From the NCBI GenBank assembly GCA_019235715.1, contig JAFAKE010000025.1, positions 1 to 51,803 on the forward strand: a DNA stretch of 51,803 bases, given 5' to 3'. A model generated the notes under the pieces. The model was not told the origin of the DNA. It ran no database searches and saw nothing but the letters and a program-made list of their open reading frames with translations. Below, in pieces: positions 17,903 through 25,111 of this stretch; position 1 is the first letter of the stretch; each line of letters opens with the position of its first letter. Origin of the DNA: Vulcanimicrobiota bacterium. GTDB taxonomy: Bacteria > Vulcanimicrobiota > Vulcanimicrobiia > Eremiobacterales > Eremiobacteraceae. A program made the position numbers and the translations under genes.

Positions 17903-18883
17903 TCAGGCGTTGGCACGCCGTTCCTTGACGAGCGTGGTCAGCTCCGGCACGATTTGGAAGAGGTCGCCGACGACGCCGAGATCGGAGAACTCGAAGATGG
18001 GGGCGTTGGGATCTTTATTGATGGCGATGATCGTGCCGGCCGAACGCATGCCGACCTTGTGTTGGATCGCGCCCGAGATGCCGACGGCGATGTACAGCTG
18101 CGGCGACACCGTTTTGCCGGTCTGGCCGACCTGATGCGAGTGCGCGATCCAGCCGGCATCGACGGCCGCACGCGACGCGCCGACGGCTCCGCCGAGCGCA
18201 TCTGCGAGCGCTTCGATGATATCGAAATGTTCCGGTCCGCCAAGCCCGCGTCCACCCGAGACGACGATGCCCGCCTCTTCGACGCCGAGCTTGCCGGCTT
18301 CTTGCGCGACTTTCTCCTCGACCGTCACCGCGTATGTTTTGCCTGCTGGGCTCGCGAGCTGTTTGATCTCGCCATTGCCCGGCTCTTGGCGCGCGATGAA
18401 GCTGTTGGCGCGGCAGGTGATCACGCCGTATTCCGAATTCTTAAAGCCGACGGTCGAGATCACGGAACCGCCGAACTTCGGTGACTGCACCCACGCCGAG
18501 CCATCCTTGACCGAGATATCGGTCGCGTCGGTGATGACGCCGGCGCCGAAGCGTACGCCGATGCGCGCTGCGATATCTTTGCCGAGATTTGTCAGCGGGA
18601 ACAACGCGAGCGTCGGACCCAATTCGCGCAGCAGCGCTTCGACGGCGTCGACCGCAGGATCGTTGAGGTGACGATCGAGCGCGTTGTCTTCGCCGACGTA
18701 GATCGCGTCGATCGGCGTCCCTTTGAGCTGCTCGGCGGCTTTGCTCGCGCCGGCACCCAACACGACTGCGGCCGAAGGCACGCCGAGTTCTCTGGCGACG
18801 TCGGCGCCGCGCGTGCACATCTCGAGGCCGATGCGCCGGATGGCGCCGCTTTCGTGTTCGACGAAGACGATGACCGATTTCAC
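17903..18883 (-). CDS. etfA: electron transfer flavoprotein, alpha subunit
   Basis: FAD-binding subunit that takes electrons from acyl-CoA and related dehydrogenases and passes them to ETF-quinone oxidoreductase. 326 residues; C-terminal FAD domain with [54 protein letters not shown] and [22 protein letters not shown], all complete. GTG start at 18883, one base after the etfB stop. No dehydrogenase gene lies beside it, so it is probably a general housekeeping ETF. Confidence 0.96.
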
Positions 18884-18884
18884 G

Positions 18885-19676
18885 TCAGACGACCTTCTTC
18901 GCGATCAAGAAGTCGAGGATCTGCTTGGCGCCTTCCTTTGCGTCGCTGACGCTGACGACTTGGCCTTTTTGACGCGCTCCGACAGGCGCGAACGATTCGA
19001 CGACGGTCTTGCTGCCCGCTTCGCCCAGCCGCGCCGGATCGGCGCCGATGTCCGCGATGCTCGGCGTTTGTATCTCCTTTTTCTTCGCGCCCATGATGCC
19101 TTTGAGCGTCGGATAACGCGGCTCGTTGATCGCTTTGGTCACGGAGACCAGCGCAGGCAGCGGTGCGCGCACGCGTACGAAGCCGCTTTCGGTCTCTCGT
19201 TGCGCATCGATCGCGTTGTTCTCGACGGTCAGCTTCTTCACGTAGGTGACGCACGGGATGTTCAGGTGCTCGGCGATCGCGGCGGGGACGACGCTGCAAA
19301 TGGCGTCGGTGCTTTGCGTTCCCGATAGTATCAGGTCGAAGCCCACATGCTTGAGCGCCTGCGCCAGCGCGTACGCCGTCGCCATGGTGTCGCTGCCCGG
19401 GATAGCGTCGTCGGAGAGCAGCACCGCGTTGTCAGCTCCCATGCCGAGCGCCTTGCGCACGACGTCGGTCGCCGACGCCGGCGCCATCGTCAGGATCGTC
19501 ACCGTGGTGTCGGCGCCCTGCGCTTCTTTGATGCGCAGTGCCTCCTCGATCGCGTACTCGTCGAACGGGTTCAGCACGTTCTCGATCGAGCTGCGGTTCA
19601 AACGCTTGGTGACGGGGTCGAACGTCTTTTCAGCGTTCGTATCCGGCACTTGCTTGACGGTCACGACGATCTTCAA
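18885..19676 (-). CDS. etfB: electron transfer flavoprotein, beta subunit
   Basis: AMP-binding partner of EtfA. 263 residues beginning MKIVVTVKQVPD with a TTG start at 19676. NPFDEYAIEEALRIKE, LGMGADNAVLLSDD, DLILSGTQSTD and the ETF-beta signature region near EPRYPTLKGIMGAKKKEI are present. First gene of the etfB-etfA-TPR-deacetylase run; 153 bases of non-coding DNA lie upstream and must hold the promoter. Confidence 0.96.
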   Translation of the reverse strand: MKIVVTVKQVPDTNAEKTFDPVTKRLNRSSIENVLNPFDEYAIEEALRIKEAQGADTTVTILTMAPASATDVVRKALGMGADNAVLLSDDAIPGSDTMATAYALAQALKHVGFDLILSGTQSTDAICSVVPAAIAEHLNIPCVTYVKKLTVENNAIDAQRETESGFVRVRAPLPALVSVTKAINEPRYPTLKGIMGAKKKEIQTPSIADIGADPARLGEAGSKTVVESFAPVGARQKGQVVSVSDAKEGAKQILDFLIAKKVV

Positions 19677-19829: not shown

Positions 19830-20792
19830 TTAAGGGCGCACGCTCCGCAGAAACGTGCCGATAGCCGCATTGAGCGCATCCGGCTGATCGAGCATCACGA
19901 AGTCTTTTGAGTTATCGATCGTCTGTACCGTCACCGACCGCGCGCCCGCGTACTGCGAGAGATAGTAATCGTGGATCGTCTGATCGAGCTGTGCGGGCGC
20001 GAGCGCGCGCAGTTGATCGTTCATGTAGGGCGCCTGGGCTGAGACGGGCGCGATCACGAGCATCGGCTTGTCGATCCGGGCCAAGCCCGGCCGCAGGTCT
20101 TCGAGCGACATTTCACTCATCGCGCCCGCCAGCGTCGTGCGGTCGCTGCGCAGCGAGTGATCGGCGACTTCGCTCGCGCGCGCCGGATCGCTCACCATGG
20201 TCGCGCTTGTCGAGCGCGTCTGATCCTGATAGATCCAATCGGGTGCGGACGCGATCGCATCAGAGAACGAGGCGATGTTCTGCGCGCGCTGCTGCGCCGT
20301 CTGACCGGCTGCGAGCGGCGGGAAATACGGAGTCTCGTCGACGATCACCGCGCCCGCAAACGTATCCGGATGTTCTTCCATCACCCGTAGCGCGATGTGG
20401 CCCCCGAAGCCGTGGCCGATGATGACCGGCTGTTTGAGATTCTCTTGCGAAACGAGGCGTAGGATGGCGGTGTCCGCTTGCGAGACGTATGGCGGCGGAG
20501 ACGCCGGCGTGCCATCAAAACCGGACATCGTCGCCGCATAGACCGTGTGGTCGTTCGCAAATGCGCCGATCGTGGTTTGCCATTCCCACGATCCCATTGA
20601 GAGGCCCGGAAGCAAGATCAACGCGGGCGTGGGCGCATTGGCGGTGCCATACACGTCGAAATGCATGTTGCCGATAGACACCGTTTTTGTCGGAGCGGAT
20701 GACCAGGCGAGCGCACCGGGCGCCGCCGGCGGCGATATCAGCAGCGCCGCGACCATTGCGCCTGCGGCGATTGTGTTCTTGAAAAACCTCAC
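19830..20792 (-). CDS. alpha/beta-hydrolase-fold protein without catalytic residues
   Basis: 320 residues with a signal peptide (to about 29). The fold is clear: LLPGLSMGSWEW (oxyanion-loop region), SGFDGTPASPP, IIGHGFGGHIALRVMEEHPD (nucleophile elbow) and DNSKDFVMLDQPDALNAAIGTFL. But the elbow is G-H-G-F-G: Gly128 (GGC) stands where Ser is expected. Asp297 stands where the catalytic His should be, and the usual acid site (LVIAPVSAQAP) has no Asp. Probably a non-catalytic exported binding or scaffold protein. GTG start at 20792, with AGGAGG 12 bases upstream, overlaps the stop of the preceding gene (GTGA). Last gene of the six-gene operon. Confidence 0.8.
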   Translation of the reverse strand: MRFFKNTIAAGAMVAALLISPPAAPGALAWSSAPTKTVSIGNMHFDVYGTANAPTPALILLPGLSMGSWEWQTTIGAFANDHTVYAATMSGFDGTPASPPPYVSQADTAILRLVSQENLKQPVIIGHGFGGHIALRVMEEHPDTFAGAVIVDETPYFPPLAAGQTAQQRAQNIASFSDAIASAPDWIYQDQTRSTSATMVSDPARASEVADHSLRSDRTTLAGAMSEMSLEDLRPGLARIDKPMLVIAPVSAQAPYMNDQLRALAPAQLDQTIHDYYLSQYAGARSVTVQTIDNSKDFVMLDQPDALNAAIGTFLRSVRP

Positions 20793-21199
20793 GAAAAGAG
20801 AGCGCCTCCTGTGCAAAGCGTCAACGCACCAAGCCCGATGACGGCAGCGGTCACGATGAACAGCCGCAGCTGGGCCGCTGATGGGCTTGTGCTGCTGCGA
20901 CGATATGAGTAGACGGCGATCGCGGCAAGTACAAGGTAAAGCGCGACGATCTCAAGCTTCGCCATCGTGGAAATGCCCGAACCGTTGCCCATAGAACTTC
21001 CAGCGATCGCGATGAACAGCAATCCGAAGCCGAACGCGATGGCGATGCCGACCGCACACCCGCCGGCCAGTGCGAGCATGGAACCGAGGTTAGACCTTGC
21101 CGGCCGAAGGACGTGAGGGACCTGCGGATTCGCGGCGCAGTTCGGGCAGCTCGTTGCCCCTGCCGCTAGCGGCTTGCCGCAGTTGGGACAAATATCGAT
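20789..21199 (-). CDS. zinc-ribbon plus three-TM membrane protein, non-standard start
   Basis: The first ordinary start in this frame is ATG 21079, giving a 96-residue protein with three membrane helices. The frame is open upstream and encodes CPNCGKPLAAGATSCPNC, a complete zinc ribbon nearly identical in plan to that of the product at 21868-22131. No ATG, GTG or TTG lies before it. ATC at 21199 (MDICPNCGK), nine bases after AAAGGA, is the best candidate; ATT at 21193 is another. The ribbon is read from the same bases that encode the last residues of the Lgt-like protein in another frame. Function unknown. Confidence 0.62.
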   Translation of the reverse strand: MDICPNCGKPLAAGATSCPNCAANPQVPHVLRPARSNLGSMLALAGGCAVGIAIAFGFGLLFIAIAGSSMGNGSGISTMAKLEIVALYLVLAAIAVYSYRRSSTSPSAAQLRLFIVTAAVIGLGALTLCTGGALFS

Positions 21200-21855
21200 G
21201 GTGTCGATTCCTTTACGACGAGTTCTATCATCTTATACCCGAAGAACGCCAGTCCGGCAATACATGCATACTGCGCAAACGACAAGCCGGCGAACAAGGA
21301 CGGTCCTTCTCTGAAGAACTCGATGCCGAAACGCGCTGCGCAGAACAGTGTGCCTTGGATGTAGAACAGCGCGTTCTCCGGCAACGGCTTTGTATGCAGG
21401 TACCACAGCGCGACGAAAATCGCAGTCGCAGCGAGCGCGAGATATGCTTGCGTCGGGTGACGGTACGCGCCGTGCTCGTAGATCGCCCATGGCAGATGCG
21501 AGGCGATCTTGCCGTAGCAGCATTGTCCGAAGAAGCAGCCCCAGCGTCCGATCGCTTCGCCGGCGGCGAGCGCCATCGCGAAAAGATCGCCCGTAGGCCT
21601 GACGATACCAAGCCAGCGCTTTGTCAGCACGACCGCGATGTAGCCGCAGATCACTCCGCCGAGCAACGTCTTGCCGGGAGAGCCGGTGACGATCAATTGC
21701 GTCAGATTCGCGCCGGCCAGTCCCCCGATGAGCCCGGCGCTCATGAGCGTCCAGATTCCGGTCGTCGCGATGCCGCGCCGGCGCGCCATGTAGCCGAAAG
21801 CGGCCAAGCCGGCGAGGTATCCGAGTCCGTAGCAGACGGCTGAAAGCCCCATCAT
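21166..21855 (-). CDS. Lgt-like prolipoprotein diacylglyceryl transferase family protein
   Basis: 229 residues, shorter than usual Lgt (about 260-290), with around seven membrane helices. Family motifs: GRWGCFFGQCCYG (Lgt signature, in the Cys-rich version), LPWAI followed by RHPTQAY, and RFGIEFFREG. At the loop where Lgt carries a conserved HGG or YGG, this protein has KTLLGG. True Lgt moves diacylglyceryl from phosphatidylglycerol to lipobox cysteines. Lipoproteins are encoded in this window, so it may be the housekeeping enzyme, or a paralog handling a special lipid, given the radical SAM gene upstream. Confidence 0.78.
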   Translation of the reverse strand: MMGLSAVCYGLGYLAGLAAFGYMARRRGIATTGIWTLMSAGLIGGLAGANLTQLIVTGSPGKTLLGGVICGYIAVVLTKRWLGIVRPTGDLFAMALAAGEAIGRWGCFFGQCCYGKIASHLPWAIYEHGAYRHPTQAYLALAATAIFVALWYLHTKPLPENALFYIQGTLFCAARFGIEFFREGPSLFAGLSFAQYACIAGLAFFGYKMIELVVKESTPSIFVPTAASR

Positions 21856-21867
21856 CGAAACAACCTC

Positions 21868-22131
21868 TCAATGATAATTGTTCGTGAGACCGCTGCAAAT
21901 CGCGAGTATCCCTAAGAACAGCGCGATGGAGAACAGCACAGAGCAGCCGACGAGTGCGCCGAGCACCGTGATCCACGTCCTGTTCTTGCGCGTGACGAAT
22001 CGCTGGCGCTCGGCCGATATGTTGAGCGCGCCGCAATTCGGGCACAGTGAGGCACTTGCGGCTACCGGCTTGCCGCAGTTCTCGCATAGCGAGAATGCTT
22101 GTGCGCCTTGGGCCGCCGGCGGTTCAGCCAC
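21868..22131 (-). CDS. zinc-ribbon single/double-TM membrane protein
   Basis: 87 residues: N-terminal zinc ribbon CENCGKPVAASASLCPNCG (two CxxC knuckles), a basic linker (RKNR) and one long hydrophobic segment (about residues 55-80). Paralog in plan of the protein at 20789-21199; the two flank the Lgt-like gene. Overlaps the preceding small membrane gene by 8 bases and lies 12 bases before the Lgt-like gene. Such ribbons often tether small bacterial membrane proteins; no partner is known. Confidence 0.72.
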   Translation of the reverse strand: MAEPPAAQGAQAFSLCENCGKPVAASASLCPNCGALNISAERQRFVTRKNRTWITVLGALVGCSVLFSIALFLGILAICSGLTNNYH

Positions 22132-22348
22132 GGAAGAACAGCCAGTACACTTGGAAGGCGGCGATGGCCGCCATCGCGATGACCACCCAGGGCGGCTTTA
22201 CGAAGCAGCGCCACTCGCGCACGCCGGAAGCCGCCGCGTACAGATAGAGCGCGGTTGCAATCGCGGCGGTGGCGAGCAGCGTGTACTTTTGGAAGAGCAG
22301 CGCCAAGAACGCGGCCTTGCAGAACGTGAACGCCCAACCTTCGACCAT
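22124..22348 (-). CDS. small membrane protein, unknown
   Basis: 74 residues from ATG 22348 (MVEGWAFTF), with two hydrophobic helices (about 12-37 and 52-72) and charged W/R/F-rich connectors. The longer reading from 22414 overlaps the radical SAM gene and is basic and non-hydrophobic, so I discount it. It lies 34 bases behind the radical SAM gene and overlaps the next gene by 8. No family recognised. Confidence 0.6.
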   Translation of the reverse strand: MVEGWAFTFCKAAFLALLFQKYTLLATAAIATALYLYAAASGVREWRCFVKPPWVVIAMAAIAAFQVYWLFFRG

Positions 22349-22382
22349 CTCACCGCGCTGGCGACGGACATCCGCTGGGTTG

Positions 22383-23909
22383 TCAACCGCCACGATACAT
22401 CGCAACCTCCGCACGCGTCGTCGCTCCTTCGAGCGCTTTCGCGCGCACTTTCGGAAAAAGGCGGGCCGCGCAGAAGGGCATGCGCACGGGATCGTTGCCC
22501 GCGCTGCCGACGTGCACGCAGCACTGCTCGAGCCGCTCCGCGATCAGCGTGTCTGCATCCATGAAATGTTTGATGGTGATGCGCTTGACGCGCGCGCCGA
22601 CGAATTCGTGCGCAGCGTCTTTGCGGAATGCCGCATTGATGAGGCCGGCGACGCCGCCGAAATCACAGGCAGCGCACAACGTCGCCAAGTGCTTGACGAG
22701 CTCCGGGCGCGACAACGTCATCGACTCTGACATCAGGCCGCCGAGCGCGTCGCGCACGATCGCCAGCGTGTCGGCGAACGCGATGGTGTTGCCGACGACT
22801 CCGAGGTTGCGCTGCAGGACCTCATGGCCGACCAGTTCGACAAGGCTGCGATAGGCGCCGTCGTTCCCCTTGAGCATGTAACCGATCGCACAGCAGTCCG
22901 GGTGGCTGCAGGGCAGCGCGATGAGATCGAGCGCCTTGACGCGCGCGCTCTGCTGCTCGATGCGGCGCAGCACACCGGTCGTCGTGACGCGGTCCATCGG
23001 ATCGAAATGCGGCGCCCGGCCCGATGCGAACACCGGTTGGAACATCACGCCTCCGACGTATGGCGTGTCTAGGGTAGTGTCGAGGACCTGGCCGATAAGA
23101 TCTTGGTTCTCGCGCGTCACGACCATGACGAGCGTCGTGAAGACAGCGGCCGCAGACAGGCGCTCGATCGCCCGCTGTTTCACCGCCCGCAGATCTTGGC
23201 CGCGCAGATCGAGATGCGTCCGCTCACGCTGGCCGTCGTACTGTAGGTAGACTTCAATGCGGCGGCGTTGGTCGTGCAAGAATTCGGCGAGACGACCGTC
23301 GCTGGCGATGCGGATACCGTTGGTGTTGAGCAGCACGCGCGTGACGGGCAGTGCTGCCAGCTCGCGCAAGATCTCGACGATCTGCGGATGGACGGTCGGC
23401 TCGCCGCCGCTGATCATGACCACGTCAAGCCGTCCGCCTTCCCGCTCGATCGCGGTGTGCACGGCCCGCACCACGTTCTCAAGCGGCATAAAGCTCGTCT
23501 GTTTCGGCCCAGATTCCGCGTAACAGGCTGGGCACGACAGATTGCATTGCGACGTGATGTCGAGCAAGAAGATGCAGGTGTGTTGCAGATGGTCCGGGCC
23601 GAGCCCGTATTCGTAGCCGGTCGGAAGCGGGTGGATGTCGGCCGTATCGGGGTTGATGACCTTGGTCGGCACGCGCCACTGCTGCAGGTACCGCCACAAC
23701 TCGAAATCCTCTTCGTAGAGCGACCACACCTGGCCGTGGCCGCGCCGGCAATGACGTCGCAGAAAAACTTTGCCGTCGCGCGCGACGAGGTGGCCGTCCG
23801 CGATGTCGGTGGGCCACTGCGGATCGAATGCTGGGTCGTCGGCGAAGCAGCGCGGACAAACCGCGCGCACGCTCTTCAAAACGGTGTGATCGTTGATGGC
23901 GAGCGCCAT
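22383..23909 (-). CDS. radical SAM protein, tetraether synthase (Tes)-like
   Basis: 508 residues. N-terminal ribbon cysteines Cys18, Cys21 and Cys54; radical SAM cluster Cys122-x3-Cys126-x2-Cys129 (CNLSCPACYAESG), then SGGEPTVHP; further cysteines in LPCSHPDCC (334, 339, 340), LCAAC (412, 415), EQCCVHVG (463, 464) and MPFCAA (480). This multi-cluster plan matches the MJ0619/MA_1486 family, once proposed as pterin methylases and later shown in archaea to join lipid chains into tetraethers. Bacterial homologs are candidate membrane-spanning-lipid enzymes. First gene of the six-gene operon; promoter lies in the 95-base divergent gap. Family assignment strong, substrate inferred. Confidence 0.85.
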   Translation of the reverse strand: MALAINDHTVLKSVRAVCPRCFADDPAFDPQWPTDIADGHLVARDGKVFLRRHCRRGHGQVWSLYEEDFELWRYLQQWRVPTKVINPDTADIHPLPTGYEYGLGPDHLQHTCIFLLDITSQCNLSCPACYAESGPKQTSFMPLENVVRAVHTAIEREGGRLDVVMISGGEPTVHPQIVEILRELAALPVTRVLLNTNGIRIASDGRLAEFLHDQRRRIEVYLQYDGQRERTHLDLRGQDLRAVKQRAIERLSAAAVFTTLVMVVTRENQDLIGQVLDTTLDTPYVGGVMFQPVFASGRAPHFDPMDRVTTTGVLRRIEQQSARVKALDLIALPCSHPDCCAIGYMLKGNDGAYRSLVELVGHEVLQRNLGVVGNTIAFADTLAIVRDALGGLMSESMTLSRPELVKHLATLCAACDFGGVAGLINAAFRKDAAHEFVGARVKRITIKHFMDADTLIAERLEQCCVHVGSAGNDPVRMPFCAARLFPKVRAKALEGATTRAEVAMYRGG

Positions 23910-24004
23910 GCGGAGCGGTGTTGGCGCAATCGCGCGCGGCCGCCTGTCGGGAGTGCGCCGGCGCCCGACAGGGTGGGCTTTTCGCGCCTTGAATGCAAGC
24001 CGCG

Positions 24005-25111
24005 ATGAAGATCGCGGTCATCGGCGCGGGCATCAACGGCCTGTCTTCGGCGTGGGCGCTGATGCGCGACGGTCACGACATCACCGTTGTCGAGCAGGGA
24101 GCGATTCCAAATCCACTCAGCTCATCGTACGATCAAAACCGTCTGATCCGTTTCCCGTACGGTGCCAGCGATGCATATACGAACATGGTGTCGCAAGCAT
24201 ATCGCGCCTGGGATCTGCTGTGGGCGGATTTGGGCGAGACCTTGTACGCACGCACCGGCACGCTCGCGCTGGCCAGAGCTAACGACAGCTGGACGGATCT
24301 TTCGGCCGCGACGCTCGCGCGCGCTGGGATCGAAGCCAAGCGTTTGTCGCCGGCCGACGTCGAGCGCATTTTTCCGATGCTGCTGGCGGATGACGTGCGC
24401 TACGCGCTCTATCTCGACTCAGGCGGGGAGCTGTTCGCAGCGCGCATCGTCGAAGCGCTCGCGCGGCTGTTGTCCACGCGCGGGGCGCAGCTGCGCGAAA
24501 ACACCTTGGTGAAAGATGTGGACGTCGATCGCCCGCGAGTGCGGCTCGCGGATGGCTCGACGATCGAGTCCGACGCTCTCGTGATCGCGGCCGGAGCATG
24601 GGTGAAGCGCCTTGTGCCCTCAATGGCATCTCGCGTCACGCCATCGCGTCAAGTCGTGGCGTACGTGGAAGCGCCGGCCGCATATGCAGCGCATTGGCGC
24701 AGTGGACCGATGCTCATGGACTTGGACGGCGCCGGCTTCTACCTGGTGCCGCCGTACGGCGGAACGGATATGAAGGTGGGCGATCATCGCTTCAGCCTGC
24801 AAGGCCAACCCGATGTCGATCGCGAGCCGGCTCCGGCCGAAGCGGCTGCGGTCTTTGAACAGGCACGGCGTGCCCTGCGCGATTTTAAGGACTATCGCAT
24901 CAAAGCGGCGCGCACGTGCTTCTATACCGTGCAGCCCGAGGAACGCTTTCTTATAGAGCGGCTCGGGAACGCATGGCTGGTCAGTGCCTGCTCGGGCCAC
25001 GGCTTCAAGTTCGGCGCGCTCAACGGCCTGGCGGTCGCCGACGGCATCGGCCAGCGCCGGACCGCCGCCGACATCGGCGCGTACGCGGCCGGGGACGTCG
25101 TCGTGCGTTGA
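24005..25111 (+). CDS. FAD-dependent amine oxidase, monomeric sarcosine oxidase-like
   Basis: 368 residues of the DAO family. FAD fold VIGAGINGLSSAWALMRDGHDITVVEQG at the N-terminus. The C-terminal segment ARTCFYTVQPEERFLIER, then SACSGHGFKFG, corresponds to the covalent-flavin cysteine and SGHGFK region of sarcosine and N-methyltryptophan oxidases, so flavin is probably bound through this Cys. Likely oxidises a secondary or N-methyl amine to imine and peroxide; substrate unknown. Start at ATG 24005 (MKIAVIGAG); ATG 23993 adds four residues. The stop overlaps the ion-channel start (TTGA). Confidence 0.85.
   Translation: MKIAVIGAGINGLSSAWALMRDGHDITVVEQGAIPNPLSSSYDQNRLIRFPYGASDAYTNMVSQAYRAWDLLWADLGETLYARTGTLALARANDSWTDLSAATLARAGIEAKRLSPADVERIFPMLLADDVRYALYLDSGGELFAARIVEALARLLSTRGAQLRENTLVKDVDVDRPRVRLADGSTIESDALVIAAGAWVKRLVPSMASRVTPSRQVVAYVEAPAAYAAHWRSGPMLMDLDGAGFYLVPPYGGTDMKVGDHRFSLQGQPDVDREPAPAEAAAVFEQARRALRDFKDYRIKAARTCFYTVQPEERFLIERLGNAWLVSACSGHGFKFGALNGLAVADGIGQRRTAADIGAYAAGDVVVR

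Follow-up and report, generated by a model that had tools for sequence, protein, structure and literature searches.

The 51,803-nucleotide contig JAFAKE010000025.1 (assembly GCA_019235715.1; the whole stretch is hereafter the window) from a soil bacterium of the phylum here called Eremiobacterota (Candidatus Eremiobacterota, to which its named relatives assign it) encodes two proteins of particular interest: a radical S-adenosylmethionine (SAM) protein of the Tes/TrsS superfamily, here termed A, and an Lgt-family membrane protein, here termed D. Tes fuses lipid tails in archaea and Lgt puts lipids on proteins. The two genes are inherited together across Eremiobacterota and recur side by side in Actinomycetota and Bacteroidota. 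This co-inheritance of a Tes-fold protein with an Lgt-family protein points to a phospholipid as their common substrate, and on balance we lean toward the proposal that A and D are the central members of a module, so far undescribed, that modifies membrane lipids by radical chemistry.

Co-inheritance of A and D in Eremiobacterota

Phyletic patterns were established in two samples, 61 relatives and 149 genomes of the phylum. An ordinary Lgt (about 160-205 bits in the LGT family search) is present in nearly all of the 61 relatives, and nine of them additionally encode a close homolog of A. A second, weaker LGT copy (74-92 bits) accompanies A in all nine but is found in none of the 52 relatives lacking it (Fisher 6e-11, uncorrected for kinship). 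Since a canonical Lgt is encoded in the same genome, D is not the housekeeping enzyme. In the larger sample, 19 of the 149 genomes encode an A of this clade. The D family, counted at 270 bits or more with D's own profile, was detected in 16 of these 19 as against a single one of the remaining 130, in which it is a fragment at a contig edge. The small membrane protein B was likewise detected in 16 of the genomes with A, but never in the 130 without it. In one genome (G054) A is encoded on one contig and D together with B on another, indicating that the co-occurrence of A and D outlasts the loss of their linkage.

The gene order is A-B-C-D in the genus of the window and D-(small transmembrane protein)-A-B in a second bacterial family. 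The persistence of the A, B and D association in the latter, despite the altered order, shows that the set is not a chance grouping. The Eremiobacterota carrying the pair are soil bacteria. In the second family, Cpn10/Cpn60 (groESL) genes are encoded downstream of the module (L021:10635-12625 and its counterparts in seven other loci); they are absent from the window and were set aside as local context.

The pair in other phyla

All loci outside the phylum were recovered from plasmid-collection records alone, whereas the genome-collection patterns with the A alignment stayed within the class. Homologs of A with 44-46% identity are encoded by Mycobacterium avium (pS2b), M. branderi and Nonomuraea gerenzanensis, the record of the last being 11.85 Mb and thus in effect a chromosome. 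All three show the same association, with an Lgt-like gene immediately upstream and small membrane proteins alongside or in between: the order is D-small-A in the two mycobacteria and D followed by A in Nonomuraea. The Bacteroidota are represented by Persicobacter psychrovividus, whose A is 30% identical and has its start overlapped by an Lgt-like gene; a gene identified by eye as a PfaA-like polyunsaturated fatty acid synthase lies about 2 kb downstream of this pair (L129:11581-17010). A scan of IMG/VR with the Persicobacter protein returned no match.

In phylogenetic analysis D from all three phyla falls into a single group relative to canonical and other Lgt-like proteins (support 99/98). 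Eremiobacterota A and actinobacterial A likewise make up one clade (100/100), which Persicobacter A joins without support (71/23). Lgt-like proteins with the motif GRxGCFLNGCCYGK were also observed in other classes of the phylum (L113, L114, L121), where the Tes-like gene is not on the same contig; both copies found in genome G074 carry this motif.

Relationship of A to Tes and TrsS

A matches the Pfam radical SAM family (PF04055, 66.6 bits) and retrieves Tes (also termed GDGT-MAS; MJ0619, PDB 7TOL) in sequence searches with E 2e-34. Its predicted structure has 7TOL/7TOM as the best PDB match (E 1.5e-22, TM-score 0.65; next best 3.9e-8), with the core of the model being more reliable than its C-terminal part (mean predicted local distance difference test score, pLDDT, 65; predicted template modelling score, pTM, 0.75). 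A reaches the NCBIfam cut-off of neither family: it scores 170.9 bits against 450 for Tes (NF045702) and 210.4 bits against 490 for the radical SAM (seleno)protein TrsS (NF045646), to which it aligns over its full length and which is still its best NCBIfam score.

The cluster-binding sites show both shared and divergent features relative to Tes. The radical-SAM motif C122-x3-C126-x2-C129 (CX3CX2C) is invariant. The rubredoxin-like site resembles that of Tes without matching it throughout: it takes the form C18-x2-C21 ... C54-x3-H58 in Eremiobacterota, one residue longer than CX2C...CX2H, and its second half reads CX2H in the actinobacterial proteins. In the alignment C339, C463 and C480 are invariant from A to both Tes sequences, including MJ0619, and are taken to be the probable ligands of a C-terminal cluster; further C-terminal cysteines of A are C334, C340, C412, C415 and C464. 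In contrast, the three cysteines of the N-terminal auxiliary cluster of Tes (C73/C77/C80, with an additional His) are gone from the entire A clade, the segment GCPYDCGLCPNH having become PTGYEYGLGPDH, and both the Met439 ligand and Tyr459 are replaced, although Tes mutants at these two positions stay active (PMC9433317). Persicobacter A presents the opposite pattern, having kept the N-terminal cluster while the counterparts of C339 and C480 are not cysteines.

Topologies uniting the A clade with Tes (two sequences) or with TrsS (one sequence) were both rejected by the approximately unbiased test (p-AU 0.003 and 0.005, respectively). The tree, from which the remote L068 and L069 of a first tree were left out, comprises few rows with long branches, and is thus a safer guide to where the A clade does not belong than to where it does. 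Judged from its sequence, A is not Tes. An earlier note on this DNA had described it as Tes-like: this is borne out at the level of the superfamily only. A grouping with a non-lipid family would have spoken against the note's idea, but the tree keeps A out of the clade of the possibly non-lipid TrsS as well.

D is a divergent member of the Lgt family

D passes the gathering score of Pfam LGT (PF01790) by a wide interval (81.8 bits against 24.9) but remains below the cut-off of the equivalog TIGR00544 (48.4 bits against 118.9). Like Lgt (5AZB), it has seven predicted helices, and it retains the counterparts of E. coli Lgt R143, G154, R239, E243 and R246. R104 and R175 of D, which correspond to R143 and R239, are invariant; the latter residues contact phosphatidylglycerol in the E. 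coli enzyme, in which H103 is essential (PMC4728403). D is shorter than Lgt, and the position of H103 is occupied by L, E or M, while those of N146 and E151 are Cys in the Eremiobacterota proteins. Some Lgts, however, have Y, W or F for H103 and C for N146 (PMC13251419). The second Lgt homolog of M. smegmatis, MSMEG_5408, shows Y26H and N146C and is presumed to have low activity (PMC13251419); the actinobacterial D proteins show the same pattern.

Small membrane proteins with a C-terminal cysteine

At most of the loci examined, the A-D pair is accompanied by one or two small transmembrane proteins, often with a zinc ribbon in Eremiobacterota or a proline-rich N-terminus in Actinomycetota. A cysteine in the last transmembrane segment is invariant in 12 very divergent proteins of this kind from Eremiobacterota and in all five of the actinobacterial ones. 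The distribution of positive charges, together with the fusion of E to F at locus L012 (see below), places the cysteine-bearing end of these proteins outside the cytoplasm. A profile comparison of the two sets gave a probability of 31%, with an alignment that misses the cysteine, and homology between them is thus unsupported.

Gene set in the window

The six genes of the cluster (Table 1) were confirmed as open reading frames A-F on the minus strand, occupying positions 19830-23909 of the window and packed with small gaps or overlaps. Along the transcript the intergenic distances are -32 (A-B), -8 (B-C) and +12 (C-D) nucleotides; those of D-E (about -43) and E-F (about -28) hinge on the choice of the start of E. 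The part of E encoding the zinc ribbon has no ATG, GTG or TTG upstream, and E with its ribbon would need a rare ATC start at about 21199 (after AAAGGA); otherwise, the ATG at 21079 would yield a ribbonless protein.

Table 1. Genes of the A-D cluster in the window, listed in the order of transcription
Gene	Coordinates	Strand	Product	Basis
A	22383..23909	-	Tes/TrsS-superfamily radical SAM protein, 508 aa	family searches, alignment
B	22124..22414	-	small protein with two transmembrane segments, matches no known family	
C	21868..22131	-	zinc ribbon and single transmembrane segment; end ...FLGILAICSGL with conserved C-terminal Cys	
D	21166..21855	-	Lgt-family membrane protein, 229 aa, seven predicted helices	
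E	20789..21199	-	zinc ribbon and three transmembrane segments; end ...IGLGALTLCTGG	
F	19830..20816	-	alpha/beta-hydrolase-fold protein, exported (N-terminal signal-like stretch), probably inactive	

The earlier note regarded these genes as a six-gene operon. Their reality and tight packing are upheld, but the conserved unit comprises only A, D and, within Eremiobacterota, B. Neither C nor F in this arrangement extends beyond the genus, and E varies even within it, being absent or fused in some members. Conservation of the neighborhood, the lack of which would have spoken against the note, holds for A, B and D, and the arrangement of C, E and F is limited to the genus. B is marked by invariant Cys32 and Cys70, located in REWRCW and FVKPPW. 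At L012:5480-6700 the E-type membrane protein and the F hydrolase-fold protein constitute one fused reading frame. The description of F as catalytically dead fits the protein of the window and that of L012, in which the nucleophile motif reads GHGFGG with the nucleophile lost, but L013 has GHSIGG; all three lack the usual His, which is replaced in the window. Inactivity of F is therefore likely, but not uniform.

Beyond F, and likewise on the minus strand, lie genes for electron transfer flavoprotein subunits (17903-19676), which were seen beside the module only within the genus. A flavin adenine dinucleotide (FAD) oxidoreductase gene (23993-25111) was considered as a partner and rejected, the similar gene near other loci being just 25% identical.

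Other members of the superfamily

Several Tes/TrsS-like radical SAM genes are followed or overlapped by a methyltransferase gene (L128:7977-10345, L130:5992-8155, L131:4926-7204, L132:5013-7123 and L065:5256-7435); the three methyltransferases tested, at L128, L130 and L065, belong to the DVU_1556 family. These loci come from plasmids of haloarchaea and Mycolicibacterium and from one Eremiobacterota genome. The superfamily seems to swap partners. A true TrsS (629 bits) is fused to a DVU_1551-family nucleoside triphosphate (NTP) transferase, with a coenzyme A (CoA)-ligase-like gene overlapping its end and, unlike in the case of A, no adjoining Lgt-like gene (L066:3038-5536). Genome G074, from the same phylum, encodes a Tes homolog (560 bits, above the NCBIfam cut-off) with different neighbors (L067:4996-8342), including, about 1 kb away, a gene identified by eye as cytidine diphosphate (CDP)-alcohol-phosphatidyltransferase-like. 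This Tes homolog is a better candidate for the synthesis of bacterial membrane-spanning lipids than A of the window.

The proposed module and its alternatives

In the proposed module, the cytosolic A would generate a 5'-deoxyadenosyl radical and abstract hydrogen from a phospholipid alkyl chain. Its C-terminal cluster, predicted to lie next to the lipid pocket, would join in the formation of a C-C or C-S bond as in Tes. D, located in the membrane, would bind the head region of the phospholipid and would use or deliver the diacylglyceryl moiety once the lipid has been modified, whereas the small membrane proteins, with a cysteine at the outer end of their last transmembrane helix, are candidate acceptors or docking partners of D. 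The chemistry on the tail could be C-C coupling, giving a membrane-spanning lipid, sulfur insertion or another reaction. Of the earlier proposal that the cluster makes or handles membrane-spanning lipids, what is supported is the functional tie between an A of Tes architecture and an Lgt-family D, both as neighbors in three phyla and where unlinked in G054; the rejection of the Tes clade and the lost N-terminal cluster cysteines leave membrane-spanning lipids as one possibility rather than the default.

Several observations weigh against the proposed module or lend it no support. A falls outside the Tes clade and is devoid of the N-terminal cluster, Met439 and Tyr459, and a measure of amphipathic helices in its lipid pocket did not separate the groups. 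Given the cysteine losses in Persicobacter A, a single mechanism based on the C-terminal cluster cannot apply to all pairs. D is without the H103 that is essential in E. coli Lgt, and a fold search with its AlphaFold model (pLDDT 81.5, built from 12 sequences) gave no significant PDB match, Lgt structure included. In two genomes (G120 and G076) A is present with D and B undetectable. Finally, the fold of A is also that of TrsS and of the relatives paired with methyltransferases, which possibly act on non-lipid substrates.

Three alternatives were weighed, the first two of which overlap the proposed module, so that the probabilities we attach to them are not meant to sum to one. The first is the synthesis of membrane-spanning lipids, with A acting like Tes to link two phospholipids through the ends of their tails, and with D handling the bipolar product. 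While the Tes fold and the retained C-terminal cysteines agree with this, and bacterial Tes homologs have been proposed, without proof, as makers of branched glycerol dialkyl glycerol tetraethers (brGDGTs; PMC8941075), we deem it unlikely in view of the tree, the missing N-terminal cluster and Met439 and Tyr459 counterparts, and the genuine Tes homolog with other neighbors elsewhere in the phylum. Moreover, a separate bacterial tail-coupling enzyme, Mss of Bacillota and Thermotogota, has already been reported (PMC13274423); it is modelled as Tes-like, is likened to A here by description only, and in the passages considered no Lgt-like gene is mentioned in connection with it.

The second alternative is protein lipidation, whereby D would place a diacylglyceryl group, or one modified by A, on the cysteine of the small membrane proteins, which would remain uncleaved as membrane proteolipids. 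The invariance of this cysteine in both sets, the E-F fusion, which puts the side C-terminal of it on the exported side where Lgt works, and the restriction of D to genomes with A among the 61 relatives are in line with such a role. It is nevertheless improbable in our estimation: the two sets are not shown to be homologous, the residue preceding the cysteine is mostly large (L, I or Y) unlike in a lipobox, D has lost H103 and has Cys at N146, and the cysteine could serve metal or disulfide chemistry.

The third holds that A acts on a non-lipid substrate (a peptide, a cofactor or a metal-related compound), with D as a structural or anchoring partner bereft of transferase activity. We view it with the same doubt as the preceding two: the higher score of A with TrsS than with Tes, the absence of H103 from D and the pairing of relatives with DVU_1556-family methyltransferases, which are kin to arsenite methyltransferases, are countered by the rejection of the TrsS clade, by the closest structural match of A being a lipid enzyme and by the invariant counterparts of R143, R239, E243 and R246 in D, for which a protein that only anchors A would have no use.

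The membrane-lipid module centered on A and D hence remains our preferred reading. A more elaborate version of it, which we put forward as distinctly speculative and less probable than any of the above alternatives, is an undescribed pathway in which the radical SAM enzyme would couple or thiolate phospholipid tails and the Lgt-like enzyme would attach the product to the cysteine of a small membrane protein. If so, radical chemistry might provide Eremiobacterota, mycobacteria and Bacteroidota with a lipid anchor, which could even span the membrane.

Implications

We found no report of an Lgt-family enzyme paired with Tes or another radical SAM enzyme in this sense in the literature covered, which excludes subscription journals. 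The bacterial membrane-spanning lipids behind soil and lake palaeothermometers have missing enzymes for which bacterial homologs of Tes are candidates, and all of these homologs are often lumped together. As phylogeny, cluster ligands and partner genes all set the A clade apart from Tes, the presence of A is not to be read as a capacity for making brGDGTs. Its nearly constant Lgt-like partner provides a functional clue that makes the question testable, and the A-D pair may give a context to the second Lgt homologs of mycobacteria, for which there has been no explanation.

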